In this document: piece by piece, positions 2,867 to 20,004 of the stretch
Layout of the letters: the number at the start of each line of letters is the position of its first letter
Position numbering within the stretch: position 1 is the first letter of the stretch
The notes under the pieces: generated by a model
What the model saw: the letters and a program-made list of their open reading frames with translations, nothing else
Told to the model about the DNA's origin: nothing
Databases searched by the model: none
Translations under genes and position numbers: made by a program
From: Pyrococcus sp. NA2
Lineage (GTDB): Archaea; Methanobacteriota_B; Thermococci; Thermococcales; Thermococcaceae
NCBI RefSeq assembly: GCF_000211475.1
Contig: NC_015474.1
Location: 496,001 to 560,000, forward strand
Length of the DNA stretch: 64,000 nt
Direction of reading: 5' to 3'

Positions 2867-2930
2867 GGCAATGAGGAATGAATCCAATGCTGAGCAAGGG
2901 CGATGATTGGCCCCAGAGTGGCCGAGCCTC
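2867..2930 (+). ncRNA. Candidate C/D box guide sRNA
   Basis: Boxes occur in the right order and spacing: C-like ATGAGGA (2871-2877), 12-nt guide, D' CTGA (2890-2893), short spacer, C' CGATGATT (2901-2908), 13-nt guide, D-like CCGA (2922-2925). Boxes C and D each differ by one base from consensus, so this is weaker than the other C/D candidates here. It touches the 3' end of the convergent ThiF-like gene, the junction position favoured by sRNA genes in this genome. Possible TATA elements lie at about 2800 and 2821. Targets were not identified. Confidence 0.55.
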
Positions 2931-3621
2931 AAATTTCTATTATCTCAAATACGTTATTTGCCAAATCAACTATCAGGAGCTTGTTCATAAGGGGTTCTCC
3001 GTGGCCCGTGATAAGCTTCACGACCTCTGCAACTTGAATCGACGCTATAACCCCAGCGGTAGCCCCAAGAATTGGAAACTTCTCCTTCTTCTTTACCCTG
3101 GGGAATATCTCCCTCAGCCTTTTCGTCTTCCCTGGGACTATTGTGGTAACTTGGCCATACAACCCTTCAACGGCACCGTGAACCAACGGAACCCCATGCC
3201 TCCATGCGAAATCGTCAAGCAGATACCTAGTTTCAAAGTTGTCCAAGCAATCGACTATAACATCAACGCCCCTGAGAACATCATCAACGTTCTCCTCGCT
3301 CAGTCTCCCAACGAAGGTCTCAATCTTAACATCCGAGTTAAACCTTTCAAGCTTCCACTTGGCAGAAATTGGCTTTGGATTCTTTCCAATGTCCTCTTCC
3401 CAATGCAGGATCTGCCTGTTCAAATTGCTTAACTCGGGGACCTGCTCGTCTATTAAGAGAATCTCCCCAACCCCAGCCGCGGTCAGGTAATAAGCGACTG
3501 GGCTTCCAAGCCCCCCAACCCCAACAACGGCAACCCTAGACCTCTTAAGCTTCTCCTGCCCCTCAACTCCAAAGAGCATTATCTGCCTGTCGTACCTCTC
3601 AAGCTCCCTCTCGCTCAGCAT
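2929..3621 (-). CDS. ThiF/MoeB/HesA-family (E1-like) protein lacking zinc cysteines
   Basis: 230-residue E1-like Rossmann protein. It has the N-terminal RYDRQIMLFG segment, the nucleotide-binding glycines VVGVGGLGSP, the NLNRQILH arginine finger region and DCLDNFETRYLLDD. Active MoeB/ThiF members carry two CxxC zinc pairs and a catalytic Cys after the crossover; here that stretch (residues about 160-185) reads KTKRLREIFPRVKKKEKFPI with no cysteine, and the only Cys is in DCLDN. It may adenylate a ubiquitin-like or sulfur-carrier protein without forming a thioester, or be a divergent paralogue. It overlaps the end of the upstream HIT gene by 23 nt, so the two are probably co-transcribed. Confidence 0.85.
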   Translation of the reverse strand: MLSERELERYDRQIMLFGVEGQEKLKRSRVAVVGVGGLGSPVAYYLTAAGVGEILLIDEQVPELSNLNRQILHWEEDIGKNPKPISAKWKLERFNSDVKIETFVGRLSEENVDDVLRGVDVIVDCLDNFETRYLLDDFAWRHGVPLVHGAVEGLYGQVTTIVPGKTKRLREIFPRVKKKEKFPILGATAGVIASIQVAEVVKLITGHGEPLMNKLLIVDLANNVFEIIEI

Positions 3622-4105
3622 TTTCGATCTCCTCTATGGCCTTCTTAAGCTCGTCATATGCCTGCTCAAGTGACTCGGGAATAACCTTTGTGTCGGCAAT
3701 CACGGGCATGAAGTTGGTATCCCCGTTCCACCTTGGGACTATGTGGAGGTGCACGTGCCCATCAACGCCCGCCCCTGCAACTTTCCCTATGTTGAAACCA
3801 AGGTTAAAGCCATCGGGCTTCATCACCTTCCTTATCGCCCTCATAACCAAAGCAGCCAGCTTCATTATCTCGAGCATCTCCTCATTGGTTAGGTCCTCTA
3901 CACTAGCAACGTGCCTGTAAGGAGCCACCATAACGTGCCCTGGGTTGTATGGGTAATTGTTCATTATGATGAACGCGTGCTTCCCCCTGTAGAGGATGAG
4001 CCTTTCCCTGTCCCTGTTCTCCCTGGGAAAGTCGCAGAATATGCAACCTTCATGCTTCGGTGCCCTTATGTACTCAATTCGCCATGGGGCCCACAGTATC
4101 TTCAT
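3599..4105 (-). CDS. HIT-family hydrolase (Ap4A / nucleotide phosphoramidase-like)
   Basis: 168 residues with the histidine triad DGHVHLHIVPRW near residue 115 and an N-terminal CIFC half-zinc motif typical of prokaryotic HIT proteins. The middle His of the triad is the nucleophile in the family; substrates are usually dinucleoside polyphosphates or adenosine phosphoramidates. ATG at 4105 (MKILWAPWRIEYI, a standard N-terminus for archaeal HIT proteins) is preceded by GGGTGGTGAG, so a longer reading from 4132 is not needed. The ThiF-like gene begins before this one ends. Confidence 0.93.
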   Translation of the reverse strand: MKILWAPWRIEYIRAPKHEGCIFCDFPRENRDRERLILYRGKHAFIIMNNYPYNPGHVMVAPYRHVASVEDLTNEEMLEIMKLAALVMRAIRKVMKPDGFNLGFNIGKVAGAGVDGHVHLHIVPRWNGDTNFMPVIADTKVIPESLEQAYDELKKAIEEIENAEREGA

Positions 4106-4206
4106 CTCACCACCCGATTTTAGGAATATCATTGTTTTTAAAAGGGTTTAGGCATGCTTCTCGATACAGCTCCTTGCATTTATTTACGCCTTTCGATTCT
4201 TATTTC

Positions 4207-5695
4207 TCATGAAATTCCCAAGTCTTTAGGCGTAAGCATCTTAACCCCTTCCTTCTCACATAGCTCTTTAGCCTTCTCGGTGAAGCCAGATCTTGAGAAG
4301 AAGAACATCGTCGCAGATCCAAACTCACCTTTGACTTTCCTGATGAAATCCTTCACATCTTTATAAGTTGCAGGTCTGCTCCTCCACTTGATCTCGAGCA
4401 CGTAGACCCCATCTCCAAAGGCGACGCCATCAAACTCGACATCGCCCCCTCCTATAGGGCTTGAAATCTATGTCAAAAATTTCCCTCATCCTCTCCCTGA
4501 TCATTGCTTCCTTTGCAATTCCAAGCTCTTTCTTCGCCTTGAGGTACTTCTCTTCAAGCTCCCTAACTAACTCTTCCAAGAATCTCTCCCGCCTAAGCTC
4601 AAGCTCGGTGATGCCAAGGTAGGTCTTTGCAAGCCAAAAACGCATGAGCTTATCGGTGAAGTAATACCTCTCCCCCTGCTTTAATATTAGATCCGTCCTC
4701 AGAAGGAACTTTAGATAGTTCGACACCTCACCACTGGGCCTGTTCAAGCGTCTTGCGATTTCTGAGAGCCTTAGACCTTCCTCTTGAGCCAGTATGAGTA
4801 GAATTTGCTTGTGTATCGGCCCTTTATAGGCCCTCGATAGCGATTCGTTGAAGAGATACTCAAGGTGCATGTAGATGTCACCCTTCTCGCTCAAGAGTTC
4901 GGTGAGAAAGGCATAGTAAACATCTCTACTCTTAACTTTCTCAAATCCCTCTTCAATTAGACGCCTACAGAGGGCCAAAACATAGAATGGATGCCCCTGA
5001 GTGAGTTTATATATCAACTCAAGCGCCGAGTGAGTTGCCTCTATTCCTGCCCTCTCCAACGTTGTCTTTGCGAGTTCTATTGTGTCTTCTTTTGGCAATC
5101 CTCTGAGATAAACTCGCTTAAACTGGCCAAAGAAAGGATTCTTTGGAGCTAAGATTTCTTCCATCATCCTCACGGCAGAACCAGAAATAAAGTACGCAAT
5201 GTTTCTCTGCTTTTCCGTGACAGCACGCATCGTCTCTAGGAAGCCTTTGAAGTTAACGACTTCCTGGAACTCGTCCAATATGAAAACGGCCTTTTGCCCC
5301 GTTTTCTCTAAAATTGCCTCCTGCATTTCAAAGAGGGTCTCAAGAGTTCCATCTCTGATGGCCTTAACCTCTCTTTCAAGGTCAAGCTTTGCCGAAAGGA
5401 TTAGTAGATCGTCCCACGTTAAGAGGTCACTCCTCTCAATGCTCATTCCCACAACTTTGGCGATCTCGTAGAGAAGTTCCCTCGTGTATGCAAAGATAAA
5501 AGACTCTAAGCTCCCGATGCGTTGTAGGTTCAAGTATGGAACCACTCCATTGACTTCTTCCTTAAATTTTAGAAGGAGCTCCGTCTTTCCGATTCTCCTC
5601 GGCCCAATAATTGCAACGTTAACCTTTTCTTCTCTTTTTAACGACTCGTAAGCGGAGTGTAGTATCTTCAATTCCGCCCTTCTATTTACGAACAT
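4207..5695 (-). pseudogene. Archaeal AAA ATPase with DUF234 C-terminal domain, frameshifted
   Basis: The first 421 codons give a STAND/archaeal-type ATPase: Walker A GPRRIGKTELL near residue 30, Walker B VFILDEFQE near residue 138, then a winged-helix region (LSEIARRLNRPSGEVSNYL). The frame then ends early in FKPYRRGRCRV. The missing C-terminal domain continues one frame over, beginning GDVEFDGVAFGDGVYVLEIK and running to 4207. Removing one G from the five-base run at 4445-4449 restores one protein. The lost part carries a D-x(n)-EIK pattern like the PD-(D/E)XK nuclease core of DUF234. Family role is uncertain. It is either truly disrupted or carries a sequencing error. Confidence 0.85.
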
Positions 5696-5708
5696 GATAC
5701 CACCTTAT

Positions 5709-5726
5709 AGTTTTATGCATAAAACT
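5709..5726. promoter_or_regulatory. 18-bp perfect palindrome before the ATPase gene
   Basis: AGTTTTATGCATAAAACT reads identically on both strands and ends 13 nt before the ATPase ATG (5695, ribosome binding site AAGGTGGT in between). It contains TATA-like sequence, so it could be both core promoter and operator, for example for autoregulation. No regulator is known. Confidence 0.5.
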
Positions 5727-5858
5727 GTAATGCATTAGAGTTTAATAGATTTTGTGGCTATATGAAGTAAAGGGAGCTTAAAGAGTGCCCGCAAAGATGA
5801 ATGCTCAGCAAGAGTAAAAGAAAGAGTAATGGGGTTAAAGGTAGAATTAAAGATGCCA
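5727..5858. other. Intergenic region, no gene seen
   Basis: About 130 nt of AT-rich sequence between the ABC ATPase 3' end and the ATPase promoter. I find no open frame with a ribosome binding site and no RNA motif. Confidence 0.5.
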
Positions 5859-6851
5859 TTAGCATTTTATAAGTTGAGTAAAGACATCCTCAAGACTTGC
5901 GGCTTCATTTTGCAGATCAACTACATTGTAATTTGCCAAGATCCTAAGAACTTCTCTAATGTGTTCCTCTTGGATATAGAGTTCTAGGTAAGTTAAACTA
6001 TTTTGATTGTATATGTTGACCTTTTCTGCAATCCCCTCAAAATCATCAGTTTTAACCTTCCCCCTAACTTTGACTAAAAGCCTTCTCCTTGCTTTTAAAG
6101 CTTGAAATTTTTCGATTAGTTCTTTTGGTTTGCCTTCAGCGATTTTCTTTTTGTTGAAAATCAGGACTCTATCGCACAAGGTTTCGGCCTCCTTCAAGTT
6201 ATGAGTAGTTAATATTATTGTAGTTCCAAAATCTCTGGATAGTTCTAAAATAGCATTCCAGACTTCCCTCCTTGTAAAAACATCAAGATAGACAGTTGGT
6301 TCATCCAGAATCAAAACTTCAGGCTGAATAATAAACGGTAGTGCGAGATAGACTTTCTGCCTCATTCCGGCGGAAAGCTTTTGATACCACTCATCCCTCT
6401 TATCCCTGAGATTCAAAAGCTCCAAAGCATAGTTAATCCTCTTTTCAGCTTCACCTTTAGGAATTCCCCAGAGTTCTGCAATAAATTTCAAGTTCTTCTC
6501 CACGCTTACACGCCATTGAAAGAGTCCAAACAAATCTCTCTCACCACCAAAAATTGTGAAAATCTTGCCCTTGATTCTATCATGCTCCTTCACTGAGTCG
6601 TAACCATTAATGTAAAGATTTCCTCGAGTTGGAATCACCAGAGCATTTGCAATCTTGCAAAAGGTAGTCTTCCCAGCACCATTAGGACCTAAAAGACCAA
6701 AAATCTCGCCCTCCTTAACTTTGAAATTTAAATCAATTAGGGCTGGGATTTTCTCTCTGGGTTTTCCAAGAAAGTCTCTCAAACTCTTCAGGTCAAAGAG
6801 CGATTTTATTGGAGGGGGATAAAACTTAGTCAAGTTAACTGACTCAATCAT
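5859..6851 (-). CDS. ABC transporter ATP-binding protein (intact, orphan)
   Basis: 330 residues. Walker A GLLGPNGAGKTT near residue 55, signature LSAGMRQKVYL near 164, Walker B EVLILDEPTVYLD near 185 and the switch His in ILTTHNLKEAE are all present, so it should hydrolyse ATP. A C-terminal extension of about 80 residues follows, as in DrrA/NatA-type exporters. Its ATG (6851) follows AAGGGAGCAAA. No permease lies beside it on this strand, but it diverges from the Cys-rich peptide gene, and the permease at 12.0 kb has only a dead ATPase. It may therefore power that permease; this is inference. The divergent promoter region is duplicated at 10.6 kb. Confidence 0.92.
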   Translation of the reverse strand: MIESVNLTKFYPPPIKSLFDLKSLRDFLGKPREKIPALIDLNFKVKEGEIFGLLGPNGAGKTTFCKIANALVIPTRGNLYINGYDSVKEHDRIKGKIFTIFGGERDLFGLFQWRVSVEKNLKFIAELWGIPKGEAEKRINYALELLNLRDKRDEWYQKLSAGMRQKVYLALPFIIQPEVLILDEPTVYLDVFTRREVWNAILELSRDFGTTIILTTHNLKEAETLCDRVLIFNKKKIAEGKPKELIEKFQALKARRRLLVKVRGKVKTDDFEGIAEKVNIYNQNSLTYLELYIQEEHIREVLRILANYNVVDLQNEAASLEDVFTQLIKC

Positions 6852-6876
6852 TTTGCTCCCTTAGTTCCTTTGATGA

Positions 6877-7018
6877 AGTTACTTATAACTATTGCTCTTT
6901 TTTTCTTTAATTACGGTTTCATGACATTTATAAAAAAGTTTCAAGGATTTTATAAATAAGTTGCAGTAAAACTTATTTATCGTTTCACCCGAAAATGTGA
7001 ATGCAAAAACTTGAGGAG
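6877..7018. promoter_or_regulatory. Divergent promoter region of the peptide cluster (repeat copy 1)
   Basis: AT-rich divergent promoter between the ABC ATPase (minus) and the peptide gene (plus). Minus-strand TATA-like GTTATAAGT lies near 6880. Plus-strand candidates are TTTTATAAATA (about 6949) and CTTATTTAT (6972). Nearly the whole segment recurs at 10604-10741 with scattered substitutions. A strong GAGGAGGTGG ribosome binding site for the peptide gene follows at 7013. Confidence 0.7.
6952..6980. promoter_or_regulatory. Inverted repeat, candidate operator of the peptide gene
   Basis: ATAAATAAG and CTTATTTAT form a perfect 9-bp inverted repeat separated by 11 nt, overlapping the possible TATA boxes. 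The duplicated promoter at 10.6 kb keeps it with one mismatch (ATAAATTAG/CTTATTTAT). It could be a repressor site; AT-rich promoters can produce such symmetry by chance. Confidence 0.4.
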
Positions 7019-7028
7019 GTGGTAGGGT

Positions 7029-7250
7029 ATGGAGTTTGAGATTATAGAAAGAGGTTCAGGAGAGGGAATTGCTGGGAACCTCTCATGTACCTGCTATGCA
7101 GGATCAGGTCTTTGCGGAGATGACTGCAGTCTATATTGTCCAGGAGTTTGCATACCTAAGTGTATCGCCGTATTGATTCCAATGGGTTTCTGTATTGGAA
7201 TATATTGTGAGTGTAACCAGCGTTGCGAACCTGATTGTGTCTGTCATTAA
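7029..7250 (+). CDS. Cysteine-rich peptide, candidate RiPP precursor
   Basis: 73 residues with 13 Cys, all in the last 54 residues (C20, 22, 29, 33, 37, 41, 45, 55, 60, 62, 66, 70, 72). C29 to C45 are spaced exactly every four residues, and the Cys often flank Gly, Pro and small residues. The first 19 residues (MEFEIIERGSGEGIAGNLS) have no Cys and would be the leader; there is no Sec signal. The ATG follows a strong GAGGAGGTGG site. A radical SAM/SPASM gene begins 60 nt downstream, the usual arrangement for sactipeptide or ranthipeptide precursors with their maturase. An alternative is a metal-binding (ferredoxin- or metallothionein-like) peptide. I do not recognise a named family. Confidence 0.75.
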   Translation: MEFEIIERGSGEGIAGNLSCTCYAGSGLCGDDCSLYCPGVCIPKCIAVLIPMGFCIGIYCECNQRCEPDCVCH

Positions 7251-7260
7251 CTACTAATCG

Positions 7261-7280
7261 TTTGTTTTTTTGTTTTGTTA
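7261..7280 (+). terminator. T-rich tract after the peptide gene, possible partial terminator
   Basis: TTTGTTTTTTTGTTTTGTTA immediately after the peptide gene. Oligo-T tracts terminate archaeal transcription. Here one would give abundant short peptide mRNA, with read-through into the maturase. Confidence 0.5.
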
Positions 7281-7310
7281 TTTCTCAATTGAAGATGTGG
7301 AGGGAAATAA

Positions 7311-8729
7311 ATGCCGTATAAATCCTCCAAATATAATTTGTTCATCGAAGGAAAACGAGAAGTTATATTATTTAACACATTGAGAAACATAATAGCTAAG
7401 TGTGATATTGAAACAAAAGAAATCTTGGAAAATGAAACGTTTAATAAATTGCCTCCAGACTTGTTAAATAAGATGATTTCTGAAGGAATAATAGTTAACA
7501 AAGAACTAAACGAGCTTAATATCATTAAACTTACAAGAATGATGTATTATGGACAACTTCTACATTATTTAAGTATTGGACTGACTTTAGTAATGACATA
7601 TTCTTGTAATTTGAGATGTCCCTACTGTTATGAAGGAGATATAAAAAGCAAAGGTGGGTTATTAACCCGAGAGAAAATTGAGACAATACTCACTTTTGCA
7701 AGTGCTTATGCACAAGGAGACAAAAAACCAACAATCTCAGTTAGTTTCTATGGAGGAGAACCTCTTTTAAATTGGAAAGGATGTGAATATACACTACAAA
7801 GATTAGAAGAAATGAAAGAGAATAAAGAAATCCGTGATTATTCAGCAGGTTTTGTCACTAATGGAACACTAATTAATGAGGACATTGTTGACGCAATCAA
7901 TAACTACAACGTATATTCAATGCAGATAACATTGGATGGTCCAAAAGAGATCCACGATAAAAGAAGAATAAAATCAAATGGAGAGGGAACATTTGATCAA
8001 ATAATCGAAAATATAAAACTTTTAAATCGGAGAATAGCTAATAAAAACTTCCATTTGGCATTAAGAATAAATGTTGACAAAACAAACTATAAAAAAATCC
8101 CAGAATTGTTAGACTTCTTAAAGGATGAGGGTCTAGGAGGTATACCAATTTCCTATGGAATTGTGAGAGGAAATCTTCCTTATTGTAGTTCCAACTGCGG
8201 TGTTTACTTTTCTGGGAGCGATCTTCAGAAGTATCTCCCATATCTTTGGAAAGAAGCTTACAGGCGAGGATTCGAGGTTTGGACTAGACCTAACTTACGA
8301 TTCATTTATTGCGGATATGACAATCCATTTGGATACGTTATTGACCCAGAATTAAAGGTATGTCCGTGTTGGGAGATGGTTGGAATTGAGGATTATCAAA
8401 TTGGGGAAATACAGAAAGATGGAACAATGAAAATTACTCCATTTTATTATGATGCGAAATCTAGGGATCCTACAGAATATGAAGAGTGCAAGAATTGCAA
8501 ACTTTTGCCAGTTTGCATGGGTGGATGTGCAATGGAGTCAATTCGAAAAAATGGACATCCCAATGGTCCAGGATGTGACATAAATAAATATATTTGGAAA
8601 GAAGGATTAAAATTTTATCTAATGAAGAAGTATCCCAACCTATTTAGCAAGGAAACTCTAATAGAGAACTTAGGGGGAGTTCCAAATAGAGATGAACAAA
8701 CCAAAAATCGTATAATGTTCAATACTTAA
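7311..8729 (+). CDS. Radical SAM/SPASM peptide maturase
   Basis: 472 residues. The N-terminal ~90 residues look like the small winged-helix leader-recognition region common in RiPP radical SAM enzymes (inferred from position and residue pattern). The radical SAM cluster motif is C99xxxC103xxC106 (SCNLRCPYC), followed by SFYGGEP and the TLDG strand. The C-terminal SPASM region has cysteines at 334, 351, 353, 393, 396, 402, 406 and 422, including the CMGGCAMESIRKNG motif, enough for two auxiliary Fe-S clusters. Such enzymes form thioether crosslinks from Cys in peptides. ATG follows GTGGAGGGAAATAA. Three decayed relatives of its C-terminal half lie downstream. Confidence 0.93.
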   Translation: MPYKSSKYNLFIEGKREVILFNTLRNIIAKCDIETKEILENETFNKLPPDLLNKMISEGIIVNKELNELNIIKLTRMMYYGQLLHYLSIGLTLVMTYSCNLRCPYCYEGDIKSKGGLLTREKIETILTFASAYAQGDKKPTISVSFYGGEPLLNWKGCEYTLQRLEEMKENKEIRDYSAGFVTNGTLINEDIVDAINNYNVYSMQITLDGPKEIHDKRRIKSNGEGTFDQIIENIKLLNRRIANKNFHLALRINVDKTNYKKIPELLDFLKDEGLGGIPISYGIVRGNLPYCSSNCGVYFSGSDLQKYLPYLWKEAYRRGFEVWTRPNLRFIYCGYDNPFGYVIDPELKVCPCWEMVGIEDYQIGEIQKDGTMKITPFYYDAKSRDPTEYEECKNCKLLPVCMGGCAMESIRKNGHPNGPGCDINKYIWKEGLKFYLMKKYPNLFSKETLIENLGGVPNRDEQTKNRIMFNT

Positions 8730-8731
8730 TA

Positions 8732-8753
8732 CATTATTTATTTTTAAATAATG
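8732..8753. repeat. Perfect inverted repeat after the maturase gene
   Basis: CATTATTTA and TAAATAATG pair perfectly around a TTTT loop, 3 nt past the maturase stop and 34 nt before the peptidase start. It may be an RNA hairpin between the two genes or a promoter element of the peptidase. Confidence 0.45.
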
Positions 8754-8787
8754 ATAACAATACATCGAAACAAAATGGTGGGAAGTT

Positions 8788-10536
8788 ATGATGATTGGAA
8801 AAAAGGTGATTGTTATTTTCATTTCTTTTATCATCATACTCCCTAGTGGATGCCTCAGGATTCCAACTGAGCAGAAAACTTCTTCTCAAATGCAAGCAAA
8901 TTCAGAACTACATGTTGAATATCCTTTACAAGCAGAAGCGCAAGTGATATACGAACCTGAAATAGATGATATTTTTAGGAGAATTTCAGTGGATTATTCT
9001 CTGGTTGGAAATGTAAGTACCTCAATTACACATCATCATTTAAGGCTGAAATGGGACTTCATGATCGTAAACAGAACACAAGATAGTACAATAATTTACA
9101 TATTAACCCCAAACTTTGGTAACTTGAATATCACATTTGAAGAACAGCAAGTTAATTTATCGAGACTCTCTTATTACTTATTGCCTGATTATAATGTCAA
9201 GATATTTCTCTTGAATTTAACATATTCAAAAGATAAACCACTCTTCGGAACACTGGAATATGAGACGACGATAGATTCCCTGTTTCTCTATTACGTAGCT
9301 CAATTTTCCAAGTCTTTTTATTATCCAGAAAACTATCCTTATGCAATATACTTTTCACCGAATTTTGTTTTCCCCGTATCTCCTGCAGGGATAATTGGGA
9401 AAGTTTCTCGGGGAAATATCGTTCTTGTTCTTCCTTCGAGGTATGCAGTAATCTCTGAGTACCCGTTAGAAGTAAACTCTAAGAATAATCAAACGATTAT
9501 AATAATTGACAATTCCAAACCATGGGGTTCTGTGTATATTTATAAAAGAGGATTTTTCCAGGAAACTAAACTAACAATAGGGGACAACAATACTTGGTTA
9601 GTAATTTATGCTCCAAGCAATATGAGGTTATATTCTAAGGAACTTACTAACGCTACTGTAAAAATAATTAAGCATTACATAGATAGATTGATGGATCCCC
9701 CTTATTCCGAAATCAACGTAATTTTTCATCCAGATCTTCCATTTGGAAATGGAGAGGAATTTGAGGATTCTGGAAAAGGAATTGCAATTGTTGGAATTCG
9801 AGATAGCAAAAGGATTGAAGACATTTTACCAACCCTTGCACATGAAGTTGCTCATCTGTGGTTTGGAAGTTATACTAATCTCACTCCAGGAATTGAGGAA
9901 GGTCTTGCTACATTCATGGGAAGTGATGCGGGATATCTCAGCTATAGCTTAGGTTACACAGAAAGGCAAATATTGAAATATTCTTCACAATACAGGAAAC
10001 CATTGATTCAGGCCTATAAAGAAGTTATCTCCAATCCCCAAGTTAGGAATGCCATTAAATATTATAAGGGTGCTTTTGTCTTCCGCTCCCTACAATTCGT
10101 GCTCGGGAATGAGACTTTCTTTGAAGGCTTAAGAGAGCTTTTGAGGGAGTGCCATGGTAAAGAATGCAATTTAACGGACGTTCAAAGTGTTTTTGAAAAA
10201 GTCAGTGGACAAGATTTAGATTGGTTCTTCAAAGAATGGTTTTACACTGCAAAAGTTCCTAATTATTACGTGAGAAACCTACGTTTGGAGAAAGAGGATT
10301 GGAGATACACAGTAAGCTTTGAAATTATTGACAAAAACAACTTCACAATGCCACTTGAAGTCGAAGTAAAAACTCCAACAAAGAGTTTCATTAAGAAAAT
10401 CTGGGTTAATGGGAGTGCAAGGGTAGAGTTTGAACTTAATGAAAAGCCCACAGAGATAATTCTCGACCCAAACGAGTGGATGGTGAATGAGAACAAAAAA
10501 TACAATGTTAAAGGAATAGAGATAATAATTGAGTGA
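8788..10536 (+). CDS. M1-like zinc peptidase, lipoprotein
   Basis: 582 residues. The N-terminus is a lipoprotein signal (hydrophobic run then LPSGC, lipid-modified C22), placing the enzyme on the outer face of the membrane. The gluzincin motif HEVAHLWFG starts at residue 352 with the third zinc-ligand candidate in GIEEGLATF. The glutamate lies about 15 residues after the second His, not the 19 of typical M1 enzymes, so the loop is shortened. The C-terminus has the M1-type KGAFVFRSLQFVLGNETFF and SGQDLDWFFKEWFY segments. RBS GGTGGGAAG. A role in trimming the exported peptide is inference. Its C-terminal third is almost identical to the peptidase at 16.4 kb. Confidence 0.9.
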   Translation: MMIGKKVIVIFISFIIILPSGCLRIPTEQKTSSQMQANSELHVEYPLQAEAQVIYEPEIDDIFRRISVDYSLVGNVSTSITHHHLRLKWDFMIVNRTQDSTIIYILTPNFGNLNITFEEQQVNLSRLSYYLLPDYNVKIFLLNLTYSKDKPLFGTLEYETTIDSLFLYYVAQFSKSFYYPENYPYAIYFSPNFVFPVSPAGIIGKVSRGNIVLVLPSRYAVISEYPLEVNSKNNQTIIIIDNSKPWGSVYIYKRGFFQETKLTIGDNNTWLVIYAPSNMRLYSKELTNATVKIIKHYIDRLMDPPYSEINVIFHPDLPFGNGEEFEDSGKGIAIVGIRDSKRIEDILPTLAHEVAHLWFGSYTNLTPGIEEGLATFMGSDAGYLSYSLGYTERQILKYSSQYRKPLIQAYKEVISNPQVRNAIKYYKGAFVFRSLQFVLGNETFFEGLRELLRECHGKECNLTDVQSVFEKVSGQDLDWFFKEWFYTAKVPNYYVRNLRLEKEDWRYTVSFEIIDKNNFTMPLEVEVKTPTKSFIKKIWVNGSARVEFELNEKPTEIILDPNEWMVNENKKYNVKGIEIIIE

Positions 10537-10603
10537 TGACTCCAACGTTTCTGTTTGTCGTATTAATGTTCATTACTGCTCACCACTCATTATTAAAAAT
10601 TAG

Positions 10604-10741
10604 TGAAATTACTTATAAGCTCTGTCTTTTCTTTAATTATGGTTTAATGCTATTTATATAAAAGTTTCAAGGATTTTATAAATTAGTTACAGTAAAACTT
10701 ATTTATTGTTTCACTGAAAGTATAGATGAAAAACTTAGGAG
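10604..10741. repeat. Second copy of the peptide-cluster promoter region
   Basis: Direct repeat of 6877-7018. It shares the runs AAAGTTTCAAGGATTTTATAA and CAGTAAAACTTATTTAT and ends at an AGGAGGG ribosome-binding-like site. No peptide gene follows: the repeat runs straight into a decayed SPASM fragment. A precursor and the front of a maturase have apparently been lost here. Confidence 0.8.
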
Positions 10742-10754
10742 GGCGAAGAAAAAT

Positions 10755-11037
10755 GGAAACATATGTATTGATCCTGAAGGATACATATACAAATGCTGGC
10801 ATGAAATTGGCATAAAGGAAAAGTCAGTAGAACATGTGAGCTCAGGATTTAACGAAAGATTAAACAAATGGCTATCATACAATCCTCTCGAATTTGAGGA
10901 TTGTAAAAGTTTGTATGGGTGGCTGTCCTCTCCGGGCAATGGAGAACAACAAAGAATGTACCCATAGCACACAAAATTGGGAATCACCTCAGATTAGTTC
11001 ACATGTACAAATGTCAACATCAAAACATAGAAGGTAA
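10755..11037 (+). pseudogene. Radical SAM maturase remnant A (SPASM end)
   Basis: The frame from 10755 reads GNICIDPEGYIYKCWHEIG, then FNERLNKWLSYNPLEFEDCK, matching the SPASM segment after the barrel of a radical SAM enzyme. It then needs a frame change near 10915 to read GCPLRAMENNKEC, the GGC motif of SPASM. No start codon, radical SAM CxxxCxxC motif or full domain remains. The sequence is not a close copy of the intact maturase, so it derives from a different maturase of the same kind. Confidence 0.75.
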
Positions 11038-11063
11038 GAAACAGCAGTAAGGAGGTGCAAGTC

Positions 11064-11439
11064 ATGAAAAAAATTTCTCTTGTTATCCTTTTGTTTTTGA
11101 TACTTGTCTTCTCGGCTGGATGTACAACTAAAATCTCATATGTATACAATAACGAAAATGTACTCTATAAACCCAATGAAATTAGATACTACTTCATACC
11201 AGCTGGATCCCATATTTCAGGATATATAAAATCAGAAGGTAATTTTCGGCATATATCCTTACAAAAGAAGAGCTAGAAAAACTTAAAGACGGAGAGACAT
11301 TTAAACCCATTAAATCGTGGGAGAATGTTAATTTTGTAAAACTCGATGTAACTCTTCCAAATGAAATTTGTTATCTTGTAGTGAAGAATGAAGAAAATAA
11401 ACGCCAATGGATAAAAGTCAAATTTAAAGCCAAAAAATA
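11064..11439 (+). pseudogene. Small lipoprotein, frameshifted
   Basis: Begins with a clear lipoprotein signal (MKKISLVILLFLILVFSAGC, lipidated Cys 20) after AAGGAGGTG. The frame ends at 11276 with a foreign tail (RHISLQKKS). One base missing in the TTTT run at 11243-11246 would restore a protein of about 125 residues continuing SAYILTKEELEKLKDGETF and ending at 11439. The two halves fit as one small beta-rich surface lipoprotein (my reading). Function unknown; the position suggests it belonged to the peptide cluster, perhaps as a self-protection or binding lipoprotein. Confidence 0.65.
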
Positions 11440-11474
11440 GCAATGATCAAACATCAATATAAACGGGATGTAGA

Positions 11475-11999
11475 ATGTCGGGAAGATTAGCTATTAAAGC
11501 AATAAACCTCGAAAAGGACTACGGTCGTATTATCGCTCTTAAAGGGATAAGTTTTGATGTTAAAGAAGGGGAAATCTTCGGTTTAATTGGACCAAATGAC
11601 GCTGGCAAGTCTACAACATTGAGAATTCTTGCAACGTTATTAAAGCCCAGTGCTGGACGAGCTGAGGTTTATGGACATGACGTGGTTAAAGAGGCAAAGG
11701 AGGTTGGAAAATTGATAAGTTATCTCCCAGAGGAGGCTGGAGCATATAAGAATCTCACTGGATATGAATATCTGGAGTTTATGGCAAAGCTATACTCGAA
11801 GACTGAGAGGAGTGTTGATAAAATGCTGAAGCTTGGTGTTGAGATTGAAGTAGAATTCCTATGCGACAGAGTTGCTCTAATAAACAGGGGTATCATTGTT
11901 GAAGTTGGCACTCCTAAAGAGCTGAAAGAGAGATACAACGCCGAAAATCTTGAAGAAGTCTTCATGAAGGCTGTAGCTAAGATGGAGGTGAAATTTTGA
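11475..11999 (+). pseudogene. ABC transporter ATPase with internal deletion
   Basis: 174 residues only. The N-terminal half is a normal ABC ATPase (KAINLEKDYGRIIALKGISF, Walker A GPNDAGKSTTL with Asp replacing the usual Gly, LPEEAGAYKNLTGYEYLEF). After KMLKLGVEIE it jumps to VEFLCDRVALINRGIIVEVG, the region after the switch His. The signature motif, Walker B, D-loop and switch His, roughly 75 residues, are absent although the reading frame is kept. It cannot hydrolyse ATP as a normal NBD. The permease gene follows with a 4-nt overlap, so translation of that gene may still depend on this one. Confidence 0.85.
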
Positions 12000-13156
12000 G
12001 CGATTTGTGGATTATATTTATGAAAGAGCTGAAGGACATTCTCAGGGACAAGAGAATGCTAACGGCAATTGTAACTCCTCTTGTTGTTATCCCCTTGGTC
12101 TTTGGAGGTGTTCAATTGTCTAAGCCTCCTTTTCAAGTTTCAGTTCACGTGATAGATCAAGACCGAGGGGTATATTCCAAAATGCTTGTGGAATTCCTCC
12201 AGAGAAATGGTGTTTTGATTAACGAGAGCAGTAGCATAACCCTAATCATCCCTCAAGGATTCTCCAAAGCATTCGAAAGTGGCCATTCTCCAAGTGTTGT
12301 CCTTCGGGTTGAGCTTTCTTCAATTTTTGATTTGAGAACTGCCAAAGCTGGGGAATATATTGGGCTTTTGTGCAGAGAGTTTGGGGAGAGCTTGACACCT
12401 GCACTAAAACCGCAATTTCAGACCGTGTTTATGGAGAGAGCAGTGAATGTTGCTCCTTCCATTTATCTGTCCTCGCTCTTAAAGAGTGCGCTGATAATAC
12501 CTGCCCTATTCTTTTTGATAGCTGTGTATGCATCTCAGGTAATAGCGGCGACAATTGCCGTGGAAAAGGAGCAGAGAACACTTGAGACCCTACTAACTCT
12601 TCCGGTTTCAAGGAGGTCCTTCATCCTTGGAAAGATTTCTGCCGCAGTTGCCTTCAGTGTTCTCGTAATACTCTCTTTGGGAATTTCGTTTGGAGTGGCA
12701 TCACGGTTTTCCCTAAAATCCTTACACTTAGCTGTTAGTATTGGGGCTTTACCCGTCGCTGTGCTTTCCATTGGTGTGTTCATGCTCTTCATAATTATGC
12801 TCCTTACGAGCGTTATAGTTTCCCTGTTCACTCAAGATGTCAGGAGCGCCTTGAGTATTGCAGGTCTTGTTGAGCTTCCTTATTTGATTCCTCTGCTGAT
12901 TATCGTGGGTGGGTTCGACGTGTCCGGTTTTTATAGACTCATTCTTGTAAGTTTAAATCCGGGTTATGCTCCCTTTTATGCCTTTTCAAGTGCACTAAGT
13001 GGAGAATATCTTCGTGTGCTTTTAGCTCTGCTTTATCTCCTTGTGTGGGATGTTATAATGCTAAAGATTGCTGTCAGGATTTTTGACAGCGACCTTATAC
13101 TAACCGCAAACCTAAATGCAGAGAAGCTCAGATGGCTTGTAAGGATAAAAATTTGA
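11996..13156 (+). CDS. ABC-2 type permease (NatB/DrrB-like)
   Basis: 386 residues. N-terminal cytoplasmic segment FMKELKDILRDKRML, a first membrane helix, a large outward domain (about residues 45-170) and then five or six membrane helices in the C-terminal half, including the conserved EKEQRTLETLLTLPVSRRSF loop of ABC-2 exporters. TTG start overlaps the stop of the preceding ATPase (TTGA). The frame is intact although its partner ATPase is deleted. It would export the modified peptide or give immunity if driven by another ATPase, such as the one at 5.9 kb (inference). Confidence 0.9.
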   Translation: MSDLWIIFMKELKDILRDKRMLTAIVTPLVVIPLVFGGVQLSKPPFQVSVHVIDQDRGVYSKMLVEFLQRNGVLINESSSITLIIPQGFSKAFESGHSPSVVLRVELSSIFDLRTAKAGEYIGLLCREFGESLTPALKPQFQTVFMERAVNVAPSIYLSSLLKSALIIPALFFLIAVYASQVIAATIAVEKEQRTLETLLTLPVSRRSFILGKISAAVAFSVLVILSLGISFGVASRFSLKSLHLAVSIGALPVAVLSIGVFMLFIIMLLTSVIVSLFTQDVRSALSIAGLVELPYLIPLLIIVGGFDVSGFYRLILVSLNPGYAPFYAFSSALSGEYLRVLLALLYLLVWDVIMLKIAVRIFDSDLILTANLNAEKLRWLVRIKI

Positions 13157-13200
13157 CCGATAATCATTAGATAGCATTAAAACAAGAAACAAGTTGTGCA

Positions 13201-13521
13201 TTGAGGTGAATGCTGATGAAGAGAAAAGCTTCTTATGCGTTCTATGGGATATGTTCTATGAAGTAATAGATCAGCCAAATCATTAAAACAAGAGAAATTG
13301 CAACTCTACATTAAGTATCTTTCAAAAGTCGAAGAAAAAGCATATATGGAGTCCACACTTTTCGATACATTATTCTCTGTTGTTGCAAACAAATCCTTGA
13401 GAAAAAAGGTATCTTTGAGCCTTTGAGAATTTGTGAATGTGTAGTTCCTGGAAAACTATGCGGTGTTGTTGGAGTGTCCTTCCTTTGGCTAGCAACTTTT
13501 CTTACCCTTTTAATTTTTTAA
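13201..13521 (+). pseudogene. Decayed ORF with Cys-containing, membrane-ending product (unrecognised)
   Basis: Three overlapping frames join into one plausible protein of about 105 residues: EVNADEEKSFLCVLWDMFYE, then AKSLKQEKLQLYIKYLSKVE, then GIFEPLRICECVVPG followed by a hydrophobic stretch ending LATFLTLLIF. Two frame changes (near 13280 and 13400) are needed. The end looks like a membrane helix preceded by Cys residues. I do not recognise a family. It may be a lost small membrane or immunity protein of the cluster. Alternatively the continuity is coincidental. Confidence 0.4.
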
Positions 13522-13687
13522 TGTCAAGGGGTTAGATGTGTTTAAAATGAATGACAAAAATACAAAGTTTCTAAATACAATTTGATGTCCCTACAAATGA
13601 AAGATATATTGTATATAACAGGTCTATTTACCTGAATTCTATTTTCTGCGAATTTTAATACTGTGTCAATATTTTTCTTATCTTGTT

Positions 13688-14034
13688 ATGTATGATAGCC
13701 CATTTTATTATGCAATCGACCCTACTTTGAAAGTATACCCCTGTCTGGAACTTGTAGGGAATGAAAAATATGTTGTTGGAAGTATCGACGAGAATGGCAA
13801 TTTTATACCGACACCCTTCTATTATGATGCAAAGTCAAGAGATGCTCTAGAAGTTGAAGAGTGTAAAACGTGCAACTTCCTACCAATCTGCATGGGGGGT
13901 TGTGCCGTAGAATCAATTAGGAAGCATGGTCATCCCAATGATCTGGATGTGTGACGTATCGATACTTATGGAAAGAAGGACTAAAGTTTTATCTGCTCAT
14001 GAACTATCCTAAAATAATTACAAGAAGGGCATGA
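13688..14034 (+). pseudogene. Radical SAM maturase remnant B (SPASM end)
   Basis: Closely matches residues ~336-435 of the intact maturase: FYYAIDPTLKVYPCLELVG, TPFYYDAKSRDALEVEECK and CMGGCAVESIRKHGHPN. A frame change near 13945 continues as YRYLWKEGLKFYLLMNYP, also maturase-like, to a stop at 14032-14034. The start and radical SAM barrel are missing, and one of the CxC cysteines is Tyr. This is a dead partial duplicate. No ribosome binding site precedes it. Confidence 0.85.
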
Positions 14035-14142
14035 AATTACCACTATAAGAGGAGATAAGTATGAAGCAGAACATGCTACTATTTGGCATTTCCACAGTCT
14101 CTATTACCAAATAAAAATAGGAAGAATAGGGGAGGATTAGAA

Positions 14143-15852
14143 ATGAGGAACATTGCAATTAGTGTCGCGATAATATATTTAATGCTTTTTTCAACTCCAG
14201 CACTAGCCTCAACAAAGAGTACTCAAAGTTCCCCAAAAGTGATTGTAGAAGTTAACCCCAATTTGGAATTGTTTGCTGTGGTTTACATTCTAGCGTTTAA
14301 CGGAAGTGAGGACTTTATTATTGCACCTAAAAGCTATATTAAAGACGTTTTAGAGTATTTTGAACCTTACAAAGAACATCCAGCAGTAGAGCTGATAAGA
14401 GAAATAATGCCAAGAGATCAGCCACACTATCTAAAGGATCATTTTATTATGGATTTCGCTGGGAACCTAGCTACTATGCCTTATCTTGGCAACTTTAGTG
14501 AGACTGATCTCCTTTTATCTGAGTTTTACCGACAACTTTCAGGTTTTGCAAAGGAAAGCAATTTTATTCGATTTTACAACTCTCACAGAGAAACATACGA
14601 GAATGCTGTAAAACCTTTGAGGGATGTGATACCAAAGGATTTTCCCAAAAAATTTATCGAATTCTTCGGATACAGCTATAGTGAGTACCGAGTAGAACTC
14701 TCATACTCGTTGTGGATTCATGCACATGTTAAATATGATTTGGACTCGATAACCTGTGTGATGTCAGTTCCTAATGATCCCTCAAGCCGAATAAGAACAA
14801 TCTTTCATGAGTTTACTCATCCCTATATTAACCCCCTTATAGATTCTCATTCCATGCTCTTTAGGAACTTAACATACTTTGTCGAAGAAGTTCAAAAAGA
14901 GTTTCCAACCGTAACTTCCAGAGATCCATTGCATTATGCCAGCAATTACTACTGGCGTGAGCTTTTAACTGAATCATTTGCCCTCTATCTAATAAGCCAC
15001 TATAATTTAACAAAGGTAAAGTATTTAGAATTTTTAGACTTCGCATCTGGTTATTACTTGGTTGATGATATTATTAAGGAATTCAGGACTTTTGAGAAAA
15101 CTAAGCGACCCACTGAAACACTTTCCGACTATTTTCCCACCTTAATTAAGCATCTACAGGAATTGGCTACTCCAAATAACGTAACACTGTACTTCAGACA
15201 AAAAGTTCCAGTTACAGTATTCTGGTTTCTTAATAGGGGCTATGCTACAGGAAGGATAATCATAGTTTATGGAACTCAGAATCCAGATGAGGAAGGTAAT
15301 AGGTACGATAAAGAAAGTGCATTTCAGCTGAAGGACAATCTAAACAAAATGTTCTCCAAGACTTATGGCATTTCACCAACAATCATAGTTAAGAGTGATA
15401 AGGAGCTTACAGATGAAGACCTGAAAGAGAATATAATTCTTGTAGGCGGTCCAGTTGCCAACAACTTAACAAAAAGTCTCCAAAACAAAATGCCGATTAA
15501 ATTCGTTTTAAATGGGACGTGGAGATTAAAACGGGATCCCAATTCAGTCAACAAGTTTTCCGCTTTTCTCTTTACTTCCTTTAGGAAACTTCCAATTGAG
15601 GAGCTTTCAATAGATGCTCCCATCCCCCAAGAATATCCACTCGGAGTTATTGAAGTTATCAGAAATCCTTGGAATGATAAAAATTTAATCCTTATTGTGG
15701 CTGGAGTTGACAGATATAGCACAAGGAGCATTGTAACCCAAGTGCAAGGTTTGCTTACCAGTTACATAATAGAGGGGAACAACTACCTCGAAGCTGGATT
15801 CTATGAAATATGGAAAACCTTGAAAAATAAAGTTATTGATGAAAACGTTTAG
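14143..15852 (+). CDS. DUF4932-type secreted zinc metalloprotease
   Basis: 569 residues. Starts with a Sec signal peptide (MRNIAISVAIIYLMLFSTPA, cleavage after ALA-S likely). Zinc motif HEFTHPYINPLIDSH at about residue 222 and a downstream glutamate in ELLTESFALYL make it a gluzincin, resembling the DUF4932 family (family name from memory). The C-terminal ~180 residues contain a Rossmann-like or S-layer-associated segment (RIIIVYGTQNPDEEG, IILVGGPVANNLT). ATG 14143 is chosen because GGGGAGGATTAG precedes it. The protein would act outside the cell. It lies between two radical SAM remnants, consistent with a protease of a lost or shared peptide system. Confidence 0.85.
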   Translation: MRNIAISVAIIYLMLFSTPALASTKSTQSSPKVIVEVNPNLELFAVVYILAFNGSEDFIIAPKSYIKDVLEYFEPYKEHPAVELIREIMPRDQPHYLKDHFIMDFAGNLATMPYLGNFSETDLLLSEFYRQLSGFAKESNFIRFYNSHRETYENAVKPLRDVIPKDFPKKFIEFFGYSYSEYRVELSYSLWIHAHVKYDLDSITCVMSVPNDPSSRIRTIFHEFTHPYINPLIDSHSMLFRNLTYFVEEVQKEFPTVTSRDPLHYASNYYWRELLTESFALYLISHYNLTKVKYLEFLDFASGYYLVDDIIKEFRTFEKTKRPTETLSDYFPTLIKHLQELATPNNVTLYFRQKVPVTVFWFLNRGYATGRIIIVYGTQNPDEEGNRYDKESAFQLKDNLNKMFSKTYGISPTIIVKSDKELTDEDLKENIILVGGPVANNLTKSLQNKMPIKFVLNGTWRLKRDPNSVNKFSAFLFTSFRKLPIEELSIDAPIPQEYPLGVIEVIRNPWNDKNLILIVAGVDRYSTRSIVTQVQGLLTSYIIEGNNYLEAGFYEIWKTLKNKVIDENV

Positions 15853-15854
15853 GC

Positions 15855-16354
15855 TTAAGAATAAATGTTGACAAGACAAACTATAAACGGATCCCAGAAT
15901 TGTTAGACTTTCTAAAGAAGGAAGGGTTTGAAAATGTATCAATTTCTTATGGGATTGTTAGTGGTGTTTATTTCTCTGAGAGTGATATTCAGAAATATCT
16001 CCCATACCTTTGGAAAGAAACTTACAGACGAAGGTTTAAGGTTTGGACTAGCGTGGATATGATATTTGGGCATGTTATCGACCCGGAACTGAAAGTCTAT
16101 TCATGTTGGGAGACGATCGGGGGATAGATACTGCATAGAGGTAAAAATTAGAGAAGATACATTAAACCTACATCCACTAAACAAGAAACCCATTTGAATT
16201 TGAAGAGTGTAGAAATTGTAAAACCTTAACCTATTTGTATGGCGGTTGTGCGTTTGTGTCGATATTGAAATACGGCACTCCAAATGCTCCAGGATGCATC
16301 CTTTATCTATATTGCGAGGCTGGATTACATTTTTATCATAAACTTCGGAGATAA
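15855..16354 (+). pseudogene. Radical SAM maturase remnant C (C-terminal third)
   Basis: Begins abruptly with LRINVDKTNYKRIPELLDFL, nearly identical to residues 251-270 of the intact maturase, and continues through IQKYLPYLWKETYRRRFKVW and HVIDPELKVYSCWETIG. One extra G in the run near 16120 causes a stop; another frame change near 16180 leads into FEFEECRNCK, YGGCAFVSILKYG and CILYLYCEAG. Several SPASM Cys are changed or lost and the barrel is absent. It abuts the DUF4932 stop by 2 nt, so the junction is probably a recombination point. Confidence 0.85.
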
Positions 16355-16405
16355 AAGGAATATTTATTACTTCCAAGAATAAATTGGCATAAATAGTGAG
16401 CACAT

Positions 16406-18097
16406 ATGAAAATGAGAAAAATCTTTATAGCTTTGATATGCATTGGCATTATATTATTTTTCACTTTTGAAAATGTCACTATTAATCTAGAAAATTTCCA
16501 AATAATTGACGGAGAGAACATTCCCAAATCGAATGCATCCTTTCGTGACATTGCCGATTTAACCACACATAACTTTTCCAAGCTTGAAGTTAGATCTTAT
16601 ATAGAACTCACAATTAATCCTTCTTCTCAAAAAAGTTTAGAAGTGGATGGGAAGAAAATTTTGACAGTAAAAAACGTTAGAGAAAGCGACACAAGTAGAA
16701 TATCACTGATATTTCCTAAGAGAGTTGTTATTGGAAATATTACAGCGAAAGGATGCTTTATTAAGAACGTTTCAATGGTCACCATGCCTCAAGCAAATAT
16801 CTTGGTACTCGTTTTAAAGATACCAAAAGATAAAATTGGGAATATAACAATAGAGTATCATGCCGAAGTAATGCGCTTTGAGCCTTTTGTAAGTTACATA
16901 GAAATGAGAGAAAGCTGGAGCATTTTCAGAACAACCTATGATGGAAACGAACTCGTGTTATCATCCATGTGGCTATTGAGGGAACTTGAAACTTTTGAAA
17001 GCTATGAATCACAAATACGCCTGAAGGTTCCCAAGGGTTGGGAAGGAGTAGTAATAGACGAAAAAGGAGAAGGGTTCTGGGAGGTTATTTACAAAGGATC
17101 AACAAGAGAGGAGAATGTTCTTGTGTATAGCTCAAAAAATTCAAGAAATCCACTAATAATTGTGGGTAATTTCTCGCTCATTTGTAAAAATCTTTCAGGA
17201 ATAACAATTAATGTGTATCAGGTGGGAAGAAAGAGAGAAGACGTTGTTTATGTTGTCTCCAAAATAGTGAGGAGTTATTCTAGAATTCTAGGAGGTTATC
17301 CATACTCCAGCCTCAAAATCTTTTACCTGGAGAGTTTAAACACTAAGGCGGGTTTTGAGTTCCCACAAGGAGTTATATTAATACATCCTAAAAGGAATGA
17401 AACTCTCCTCCTCGCCCATGAAATTGCCCACTCTTGGTTCGGTGATTATGCATCTTTTGGTAGGATGGATGAAACATTAGCAAATTATCTTGCTATAATG
17501 TCCATGAATTCTTATGAAGTGCTTAATTTTGTAGAACATTCTCCTTTAATTAATTCCACCTACACCTTAGCACAAGTTTATACGGAAGACGTGTTCAATC
17601 CACACACAGAAGGAATGGTGTACTACAAAGGTGCTTTTGTCTTCCGCTCCCTGCAGTTTGTTCTTGGTAATGAGACTTTCTTTAAAGGACTAAGGGAACT
17701 TTTGAGGGAATGTCATGATAAAGAATGCAATTTAACGGACGTTCAAAGTGTTTTTGAAAAAGTCAGTGGACAAGACTTGGATTGGTTCTTCAAAGAATGG
17801 TTTTACACTACAAAGGTGCCCAATTACAAGATTGAAAACTTAAGTCTAATCCAAAAGAATGGAAAATATATAGTGAGCTTTGACATTATTGACAAGAGCA
17901 ATTTTACAATGCCCCTTGAGGTTGAGATAATAACTTCAAAAGAAAAATTTGTCAAGAAAGTTTGGATTAAAGGAAAAGCAAAGGTTAGTTTTGAGATAAA
18001 TGATAAGCCCCTAAAGATAATCCTCGACCCAAACGAATGGATGATAAATGAGAATAAAGAATACAGCGTAGATGGAATGAAGGTGATAGTGAATTAA
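16406..18097 (+). CDS. M1-like zinc peptidase, membrane anchored or secreted
   Basis: 563 residues with an N-terminal hydrophobic segment (IFIALICIGIILFFTF) but no lipobox. Zinc motif HEIAHSWFGDY at about residue 338, third ligand in MDETLANY about 14 residues on, and a GAMEN-like strand GFEFPQGVILIHP just before. The C-terminal part (KGAFVFRSLQFVLGNETFF to the end) is nearly identical to the lipoprotein peptidase at 8.8 kb, while the N-terminal two thirds are only distantly similar. ATG 16406 has a weak upstream GTGAGCAC; an in-frame ATG at 16412 is an alternative. Presumed extracellular peptide trimming is inference. Confidence 0.88.
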   Translation: MKMRKIFIALICIGIILFFTFENVTINLENFQIIDGENIPKSNASFRDIADLTTHNFSKLEVRSYIELTINPSSQKSLEVDGKKILTVKNVRESDTSRISLIFPKRVVIGNITAKGCFIKNVSMVTMPQANILVLVLKIPKDKIGNITIEYHAEVMRFEPFVSYIEMRESWSIFRTTYDGNELVLSSMWLLRELETFESYESQIRLKVPKGWEGVVIDEKGEGFWEVIYKGSTREENVLVYSSKNSRNPLIIVGNFSLICKNLSGITINVYQVGRKREDVVYVVSKIVRSYSRILGGYPYSSLKIFYLESLNTKAGFEFPQGVILIHPKRNETLLLAHEIAHSWFGDYASFGRMDETLANYLAIMSMNSYEVLNFVEHSPLINSTYTLAQVYTEDVFNPHTEGMVYYKGAFVFRSLQFVLGNETFFKGLRELLRECHDKECNLTDVQSVFEKVSGQDLDWFFKEWFYTTKVPNYKIENLSLIQKNGKYIVSFDIIDKSNFTMPLEVEIITSKEKFVKKVWIKGKAKVSFEINDKPLKIILDPNEWMINENKEYSVDGMKVIVN

Positions 18098-18213
18098 AAA
18101 CTTCCAACTTGGGGATTTTATTTAAACAAACCGAGAATACCTTAGATACTCTCGCTGGTATGCTACTCCACCAACCTTCTTAACATAACTGTAAAACCAA
18201 TGTTATAAGTTCT

Positions 18214-18297
18214 AAAACCTTTTAAATTGATTCCATTGTGTTTACGCGAAGGGACGGCTGGCGTTGGTTGGCCGTCACCCGGGAGGTGATGGAAATG
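18214..18297 (+). repeat. Duplicate of the S15 gene promoter/leader (copy 1)
   Basis: Nearly identical to 19416-19500: TATA region CCTTTTAAATTGATTCCATT, GCGAAGGGACGGCTGGC, a hairpin GACGGC(18253)/GCCGTC(18271), then GGGAGGTGATGGAAATGG. The hairpin loop differs between copies while the stem is kept. Copy 1 drives only a 20-codon frame, so it looks like a displaced leader that was left when the intervening toxin-antitoxin segment was inserted or duplicated. Confidence 0.8.
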
Positions 18298-18357
18298 GCT
18301 AAAGTACTTCACTTCTTTGCACTTTTAATTAGTGGAGGGATCTTAGGTTCTAGTTAG
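18295..18357 (+). CDS. Possible 20-residue hydrophobic peptide
   Basis: ATG GCT AAA GTA follows the duplicated leader and a good GGGAGGTGATGG site, encoding MAKVLHFFALLISGGILGSS. The first two codons resemble the S15 start (ATG GCG) and then diverge. It may be a fortuitous frame behind an orphaned promoter. No function can be assigned. Confidence 0.3.
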   Translation: MAKVLHFFALLISGGILGSS

Positions 18358-18497
18358 CTAATTAAATGATACCTCTTAACATCTTTTCCTATTTCGCTCT
18401 CTTTTTTGTTAACATTAACTTCGTCATTAAAAACAAACCTCACAACAACACCAAAACCTTAAATCTCCCAATGATAAAATCTCTCATGGGAAGAGTT

Positions 18498-19974: not shown

Positions 19975-20004
19975 TTCCTTATCCATTTTAATTTGGTGTT
20001 TTTA

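Follow-up and report, generated by a model that had tools for sequence, protein, structure and literature searches.

Thermococcus genomes are known to contain 'dark matter islands', which vary between species, encode secreted proteins and a zincin metallopeptidase and, according to the accessible part of the source, may have bacteriocin-like or signalling functions (PMC4158269). On the level of protein families, the described systems closest to the locus reported here are CefA and CefB (NF038108/NF038107), the RiPP maturases of TIGR04463 and TIGR04334 (Clo7bot) and the TOMM clusters with YcaO, SagC and SagD.

The locus lies in the window, by which we mean the whole stretch of 64,000 nucleotides that was analysed (Pyrococcus sp. 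NA2, NC_015474.1, positions 496,001 to 560,000). Two copies of a predicted cassette promoter are found there, PA in front of an intact peptide cassette and PB in front of gene fragments (Table 1). Our analysis suggests, with a probability of about 0.92, that the stretch behind PB is a decayed second RiPP cassette related to CefA, which would have been lost through one deletion, and that the promoter is a constant module in front of exchangeable cassettes. In its complete form such a cassette, situated inside an acquired island, would have begun with the promoter and continued with genes for Cys-rich precursors, for a radical SAM/SPASM maturase with about 441 aa, for a small lipoprotein and for an ABC exporter. 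As judged from what is known about these families, the maturase would install cross-links in the Cys-rich precursor, an M1-type lipoprotein peptidase would remove the leaders and the ABC proteins would be responsible for export.

Table 1. Features of the intact and the decayed cassette (positions in the window; L070 and L071 are loci of genomes G046 and G022)
Feature	Position	Strand	Basis
Divergent ABC ATPase	5859..6851	-	84% to gene divergent from G077 P1
PA, first predicted cassette promoter	6880..7030	+	fronts intact cassette; 97% to G077 P1
Cys-rich precursor peptide, 73 aa	7029..7250	+	ORF; related peptides behind same promoter in G077, G083, G086
Intact radical SAM/SPASM maturase, 472 aa	7311..8729	+	Pfam PF04055 5.5e-19; best NCBIfam NF038107 343 bits, below cut-off of 600
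M1-type metallopeptidase, lipoprotein-like N-terminus	8788..10536	+	PF01433 8.1e-14
Divergent ABC-2 permease, start remnant, rest of gene lost	10564..10603	-	10564-10743 matches G077 118770-118587, 86%, at start of that permease
PB, second predicted cassette promoter	10604..10742	+	84% to 6880-7019, E 1.6e-33; core TTTATAAATTAGTTACAGTAAAACTTAT at 10675-10702 (pattern match G000:C1:506675-506702)
Approximate deletion junction, RBS region joined to about maturase codon 331	10740..10745	+	promoter homology ends 10742, maturase homology starts 10743; junction alignments
SPASM remnant of second maturase	10743..10983	+	to L070 maturase: 77% over 52 aa (residues 335-386), 63% over 27 aa (388-414), E 1.3e-31; frameshift near 10900-10910
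Small lipoprotein-like gene, frameshifted near 11245	11064..11437	+	52% over 65 aa to L070:4185-4592, E 5e-23, two frames
ABC ATPase, in-frame internal deletion of ~75 aa	11475..11999	+	174 aa vs 249 aa, aligned with L070 and L071; 64% over 139 aa to L071
ABC permease, open over 386 aa	11996..13156	+	52.7% to permeases of both intact cassettes; alignment

A sequence-only reading of this DNA had claimed that a divergent promoter is repeated about 3.7 kb downstream together with its inverted repeat. In a search of the genome against itself, PB was indeed found to match PA over 133 nt (10610-10742), with a distance of 3726 nt from start to start; a third copy is absent from the genome at E 0.001. 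The ungapped core of this alignment comprises 88 nt with 91% identity, and the local alignment score is 80, whereas the highest score among 500 dinucleotide shuffles is 20. The inverted repeat ATAAATAAGTT-7-AACTTATTTAT is retained as well, with 11/11 matching positions in PA and 10/11 in PB. Its interpretation as a conserved operator was rejected, since just 9 of the 25 promoter copies catalogued below reach 10/11 or better and the symmetry is thus not the conserved feature. What did not hold is the divergence of the second copy: PB lacks a divergent exporter gene, and of the leftward ABC-2 permease only a stretch matching its start remains, the rest of the gene having been lost here. No homologue of this permease was detected in the genome by a search that recovered matches in G077 and G022 as positive controls. 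Instead, PB lies 73 nt behind the end of the M1 gene, as does the second promoter copy (P2) in G077. A predicted promoter core, TTTATAAA-N2-4-RTTRCAGTAAARCTTAT, is matched exactly by PB, GTAAAA-CTTAT being the putative BRE/TATA of the rightward operon, and both PA and PB would be active as promoters. Scans of 10500-11100 for sigma-70 promoters and terminators, which are ill-suited to an archaeon, remained at chance level, and Rfam yielded 0 matches in window 4000-20000 at gathering thresholds.

Immediately behind PB, 10743-10910 encodes AKKNGNICIDPEGYIYKCWHEIG...FEDCKS in the frame of 10722, followed by IVKVCMGGCPLRAMENNKEC in the frame of 10720; the CMGGC cysteines are those which we take to be the SPASM motif. 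This remnant was compared with 459 translated ORFs, which were 130 aa or longer, came from both strands without any merging of overlapping loci and included the maturase of the window itself. Its best match is the 441-aa radical SAM/SPASM enzyme of G046 (L070:2855-4180), whose residues 335-414 it matches significantly in tblastn. The 47-aa remnant ORF alone had no Pfam match and weak NCBIfam matches (TIGR04085, E 0.017), and its identification is therefore based on the intact relatives. CxxxCxxC is the cluster-binding core of radical SAM enzymes; the radical SAM core is missing from the remnant, as concluded from the reading frames and tblastn behind PB. The earlier description as a SPASM fragment of a different maturase was correct on both counts, as the fragment aligns with a SPASM domain and its first piece shows 27% identity to the window's intact maturase (52 aa) as opposed to 71% to the G046 enzyme (56 aa). 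The enzyme of the third cassette of G077 was considered as the source of the fragment and rejected, since its E values for the two pieces are 3.8 and 0.008, whereas the enzyme of G046 reaches 2.9e-29 and 1.2e-10.

Behind the same promoter, an intact second cassette is present in two Thermococcaceae genomes of genus g3, G046 (L070) and G022 (L071). In L070 the promoter (2108-2252) precedes small ORFs (40, 57 and 71 aa) and the genes for the 441-aa maturase, a lipoprotein-like protein of 135 aa, a 249-aa ABC ATPase and a 386-aa permease. In L071 it has precursors with 44 and 66 aa behind it, and then lipoprotein, maturase, ATPase and permease. After PB come the SPASM remnant, the frameshifted lipoprotein gene, the ATPase without about 75 aa and the permease. 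This is the order of L070; in L071, however, the lipoprotein precedes the maturase, which counts against our interpretation. The proposal of a former second peptide-maturase cassette that lost its precursor and front half is supported by these intact forms and their colinear genes, and the decayed cassette reaches to about 13156, beyond the fragment first noticed, since it includes the lipoprotein, ATPase and permease genes.

In the reading frames of the window, no precursor is found between PB and the maturase remnant. According to the coordinates, the matching maturase codon lies 1.59 kb behind the end of the promoter in L070 and 1.76 kb behind it in L071. The loss would fit one deletion of about 1.6-1.8 kb, a length that is taken from two relatives, both in another genus. 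With this deletion, the precursors and the core of the radical SAM enzyme would have disappeared and the RBS region would have been fused to about maturase codon 331, while the frameshifts in the SPASM and lipoprotein parts and the deletion of 75 aa from the ATPase may have occurred after it or along with it. The promoter would have survived because it is a constant module in front of varied cassettes.

It may be asked whether PB has been kept in order to drive the permease, and perhaps the shortened ATPase-like protein, as a relic of export or resistance. This would be compatible with the origin proposed here, and the promoter core is intact, the ATPase fragment is open over 174 codons and the permease over 386 codons. 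The open permease also counts against our main interpretation, as either the decay is recent or the gene is still in use. We nevertheless consider such a function unlikely. The ATPase does keep a Walker A motif, GPNDAGKST, with D where L070 and L071 have G, but its missing stretch of about 75 aa would hold what we take to be the signature, Walker B and H-loop, and it does not qualify as an ABC exporter ATPase. In addition, 0.7-1.25 kb of mostly broken coding sequence separates PB from the ATPase and permease genes.

A corresponding island with three promoter copies, P1, P2 and P3, exists in G077, a genome of another genus. P1 is followed by a TOMM cluster, both components of which pass their cut-offs (YcaO 354 bits versus 219, SagC-type 384 versus 188), P2 by the same Cys-rich cassette as in the window, with a maturase that is 98.5% identical, and P3 by a radical SAM + DUF4932 cassette. 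This TOMM cluster of G077 is located at L053:5523-10560 (minus strand), and its candidate 52-aa precursor contains a CCCCGGGG run. The peptides related to the 73-aa precursor of the intact cassette have 75, 77 and 56 aa in G077, G083 and G086, the 56-aa one matching over 17 aa only. A contig scan with the intact maturase yielded one relative, L051, and the M1-type metallopeptidase of the cassette is likely to be the leader peptidase.

Window 7349-10048 is 98-100% identical to G077 per 100 nt. Outside this tract the identity is 89-96% on both sides, then 74-81% in the promoter region and 69-73% past 10249, and the housekeeping DNA of the two genomes is 69-72% identical. The tract of about 7250-10150 is a recent transfer. 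One of its ends lies close to the promoter and precursor, the other within the 3' part of the gene for the M1 peptidase. PA is 97% identical to P1, yet the cassette behind it is that of P2; judged by its sequence, PA is a promoter from another genus's lineage. Cassettes might be swapped by homologous recombination at shared flanks, formed on the left by the promoter and precursor and on the right by the 3' end of the M1 peptidase gene.

The fact that promoters recombine at this locus, as seen for PA, also allows the explanation that recombination or transposition brought PB next to a maturase which had been broken before, and that the two never formed one cassette, all the more as the joint of M1 gene end, 73 nt and promoter is common to PB and P2, and P2 fronts another cassette. 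To us this seems very improbable, however, as the order of promoter, maturase, lipoprotein, ATPase and permease behind PB equals that of G046, with the same promoter there, and as the junction is located at the RBS, between the end of the promoter homology and the start of the maturase homology.

The decayed cassette is part of an island of about 15.3 kb (window 4141-19490) between flanking blocks at 2929-4132 and from 19498, in which the GC content is 37.3%, as opposed to 50.8% and 43.3% outside. The flanking genes presumably encode HIT-family, HesA/ThiF-like, S15 and RecJ proteins. In all eight other genomes of the genus the site is empty, the flanking blocks being adjacent with 86-134 nt between them in seven genomes and about 760 nt in one, and the promoter is absent from all eight; the GC-poor island has therefore most likely been acquired. 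An intact second cassette at this site in related Pyrococcus genomes, the comparison that had been proposed as a check, is consequently found in none of these congeners. A tRNA insertion site was not seen, as ARAGORN found no tRNA in the window.

Further remnants were observed in the same island. An N-terminal remnant of an M1 peptidase like that of the G077 TOMM cassette, containing stops, lies at 13210-13489. It is followed by a third maturase remnant (C) at 13688-14031, which comprises the SPASM part with 66% identity over 83 aa to the maturase of the Cys-rich cassette before a frameshift occurs, and by a gene at 14083-15852 for a protein with DUF4932 and an S-layer-like domain, possibly a peptidase, which recurs behind these cassettes. 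A fourth maturase remnant (D) at 15846-16336, about 61% identical to the intact maturase and containing gaps, stops and a frame change, is located upstream of an M1-type peptidase gene at 16406-18097.

The promoter element of about 140 nt occurs in all six genera of Thermococcaceae searched, with 25 copies in 18 of 94 genomes, six of which carry more than one copy. For this count G017 was dropped because of its 29-nt match and G060 was added, having been found in a stretch fetched for its maturase. Across 115 genomes of the class, the 17-nt core RTTRCAGTAAARCTTAT is matched 23 times, in each case at a catalogued copy and within Thermococcaceae, compared with 1 match of the backwards control pattern; a longer core pattern has 22 matches in 94 genomes and its control 0. 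The left neighbour is a divergent ABC-2 permease at 16 copies and a divergent ABC ATPase at 5, hence a divergent exporter gene at 21/25, a same-strand M1 gene at 2 (PB and P2) and a contig edge at 2. Downstream, a maturation enzyme or the remnant of one is present at 20 of the 25 copies (called by blastp to the window and G077 enzymes at E 1e-9 or better, the PB remnant by tblastn), nothing but accessory genes at 3 (G074, G042 and G088; M1 peptidase, DUF4932 or ABC transporter) and a contig end at 2. These three copies without a maturase count against our interpretation in so far as they fit repeated decay but also allow other uses of the promoter. The occurrence of the repeat at many unrelated loci, which had been named as an argument against the sequence-only reading, was not observed, and although its several copies in 6 of 18 genomes and the three that front accessory genes might be taken to indicate a repeat of mobile or regulatory nature without any relation to peptide cassettes, this is hardly credible in view of the core being confined to the catalogued copies in the 115 genomes, the share of these with a maturation enzyme or remnant and the lack of an Rfam match in window 4000-20000.

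At least six cassette types, the YcaO/TOMM cluster included, are found behind the promoter according to our own typing, in which G085 was assigned from about 40 nt and several maturases by weak blastp alone. A promoter tree was built from 22 of the 25 copies, leaving out three partial ones, and 19 of the 22 were typed (all except G074, G054a and G042). The sequences are short, only 4 of 18 inner branches are well supported, and the presence of several copies per genome means that these are not independent. On this tree the genus requires 6 changes, which was reached in 0 of 500 shuffles, and the cassette type 10 changes, reached in 223 of 500, from which we conclude that the promoters mostly follow the host genus whereas the cassette types are scattered as if at random. 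The mean promoter identity is 78.4% for the same type in different genera (26 pairs), 74.6% where neither is shared (101) and 81.9% for the same genus with different types (34), and some promoters may travel with their cassettes. A further point against our interpretation is that radical SAM relatives are commoner than the promoter, occurring in 41 of 94 genomes at E 1e-10 versus 18 of 94, although many of them are probably general radical SAM enzymes. In L065 and L066, precursor-like peptides were noted downstream of the promoter and ahead of a radical SAM enzyme; they carry Y(V/I)PPxGG close to their start and have cores rich in Ala and Val.

Across the family, the same promoter element would thus start chemically different peptide cassettes. 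Whether the promoter together with the exporter constitutes a docking site in Thermococcales, at which chemically unrelated RiPP cassettes, as whole units, replace one another, accumulate or disappear through homologous recombination at the promoter and at the peptidase gene's 3' end, is a question on which we would give even odds. If this were true, the peptide repertoire of a strain would turn over under one conserved regulatory switch.

The remnant itself represents ordinary gene decay which could be reconstructed unusually well. Less ordinary is an element of about 140 nt whose core is found only at peptide-maturation loci and which is shared by several biosynthetic chemistries. Its 17-nt tag could serve to find uncharacterised archaeal RiPP clusters without homology of precursor or enzyme, and it allows tests of how genes for antimicrobial or signalling peptides are passed between archaea while staying under one control.

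In comparison with known systems, the decayed cassette is a relative of a known kind, and the shared promoter with exchangeable cassettes is new as far as could be found; no published description of this promoter or these cassettes was encountered, including in the accessible parts of PMC12144867, PMC4158269, PMC4603692 and PMC6981617. The archaeal dark matter islands are similar in being species-variable and in containing a zincin metallopeptidase, but the accessible part of their description concerns other protein families and mentions neither a shared promoter nor a radical SAM peptide cassette (PMC4158269). The TOMM cluster shares the promoter, being fronted by the first copy in G077, but is not the cassette behind PB and shows that the promoter is common to several chemistries. 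The RiPP maturases of TIGR04463 and TIGR04334 are the best full-length matches of the intact counterparts, with 302-305 and 294 bits, but their cut-offs of 525 and 600 are not reached. With respect to CefA and CefB, one Cys-rich precursor was tested per intact counterpart, and both (L070:2567-2779, 71 aa, and L071:8435-8632, 66 aa) pass the CefA model NF038108 with 50.9 and 58.7 bits (cut-off 30). The counterpart maturases match CefB (NF038107) with 235 bits, far under its cut-off of 600 and less than the two other models; being below all three cut-offs, they were filed under none of these families. The window remnant is not assigned to CefA, as no precursor is left; nor is it assigned to CefB, whose cut-off the intact counterparts miss, the remnant itself being too short for a full score. 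Its kinship to CefA is therefore drawn from the maturase fragment and the colinear genes, and for the same reason we label it a remnant related to CefA and not a member of that family.
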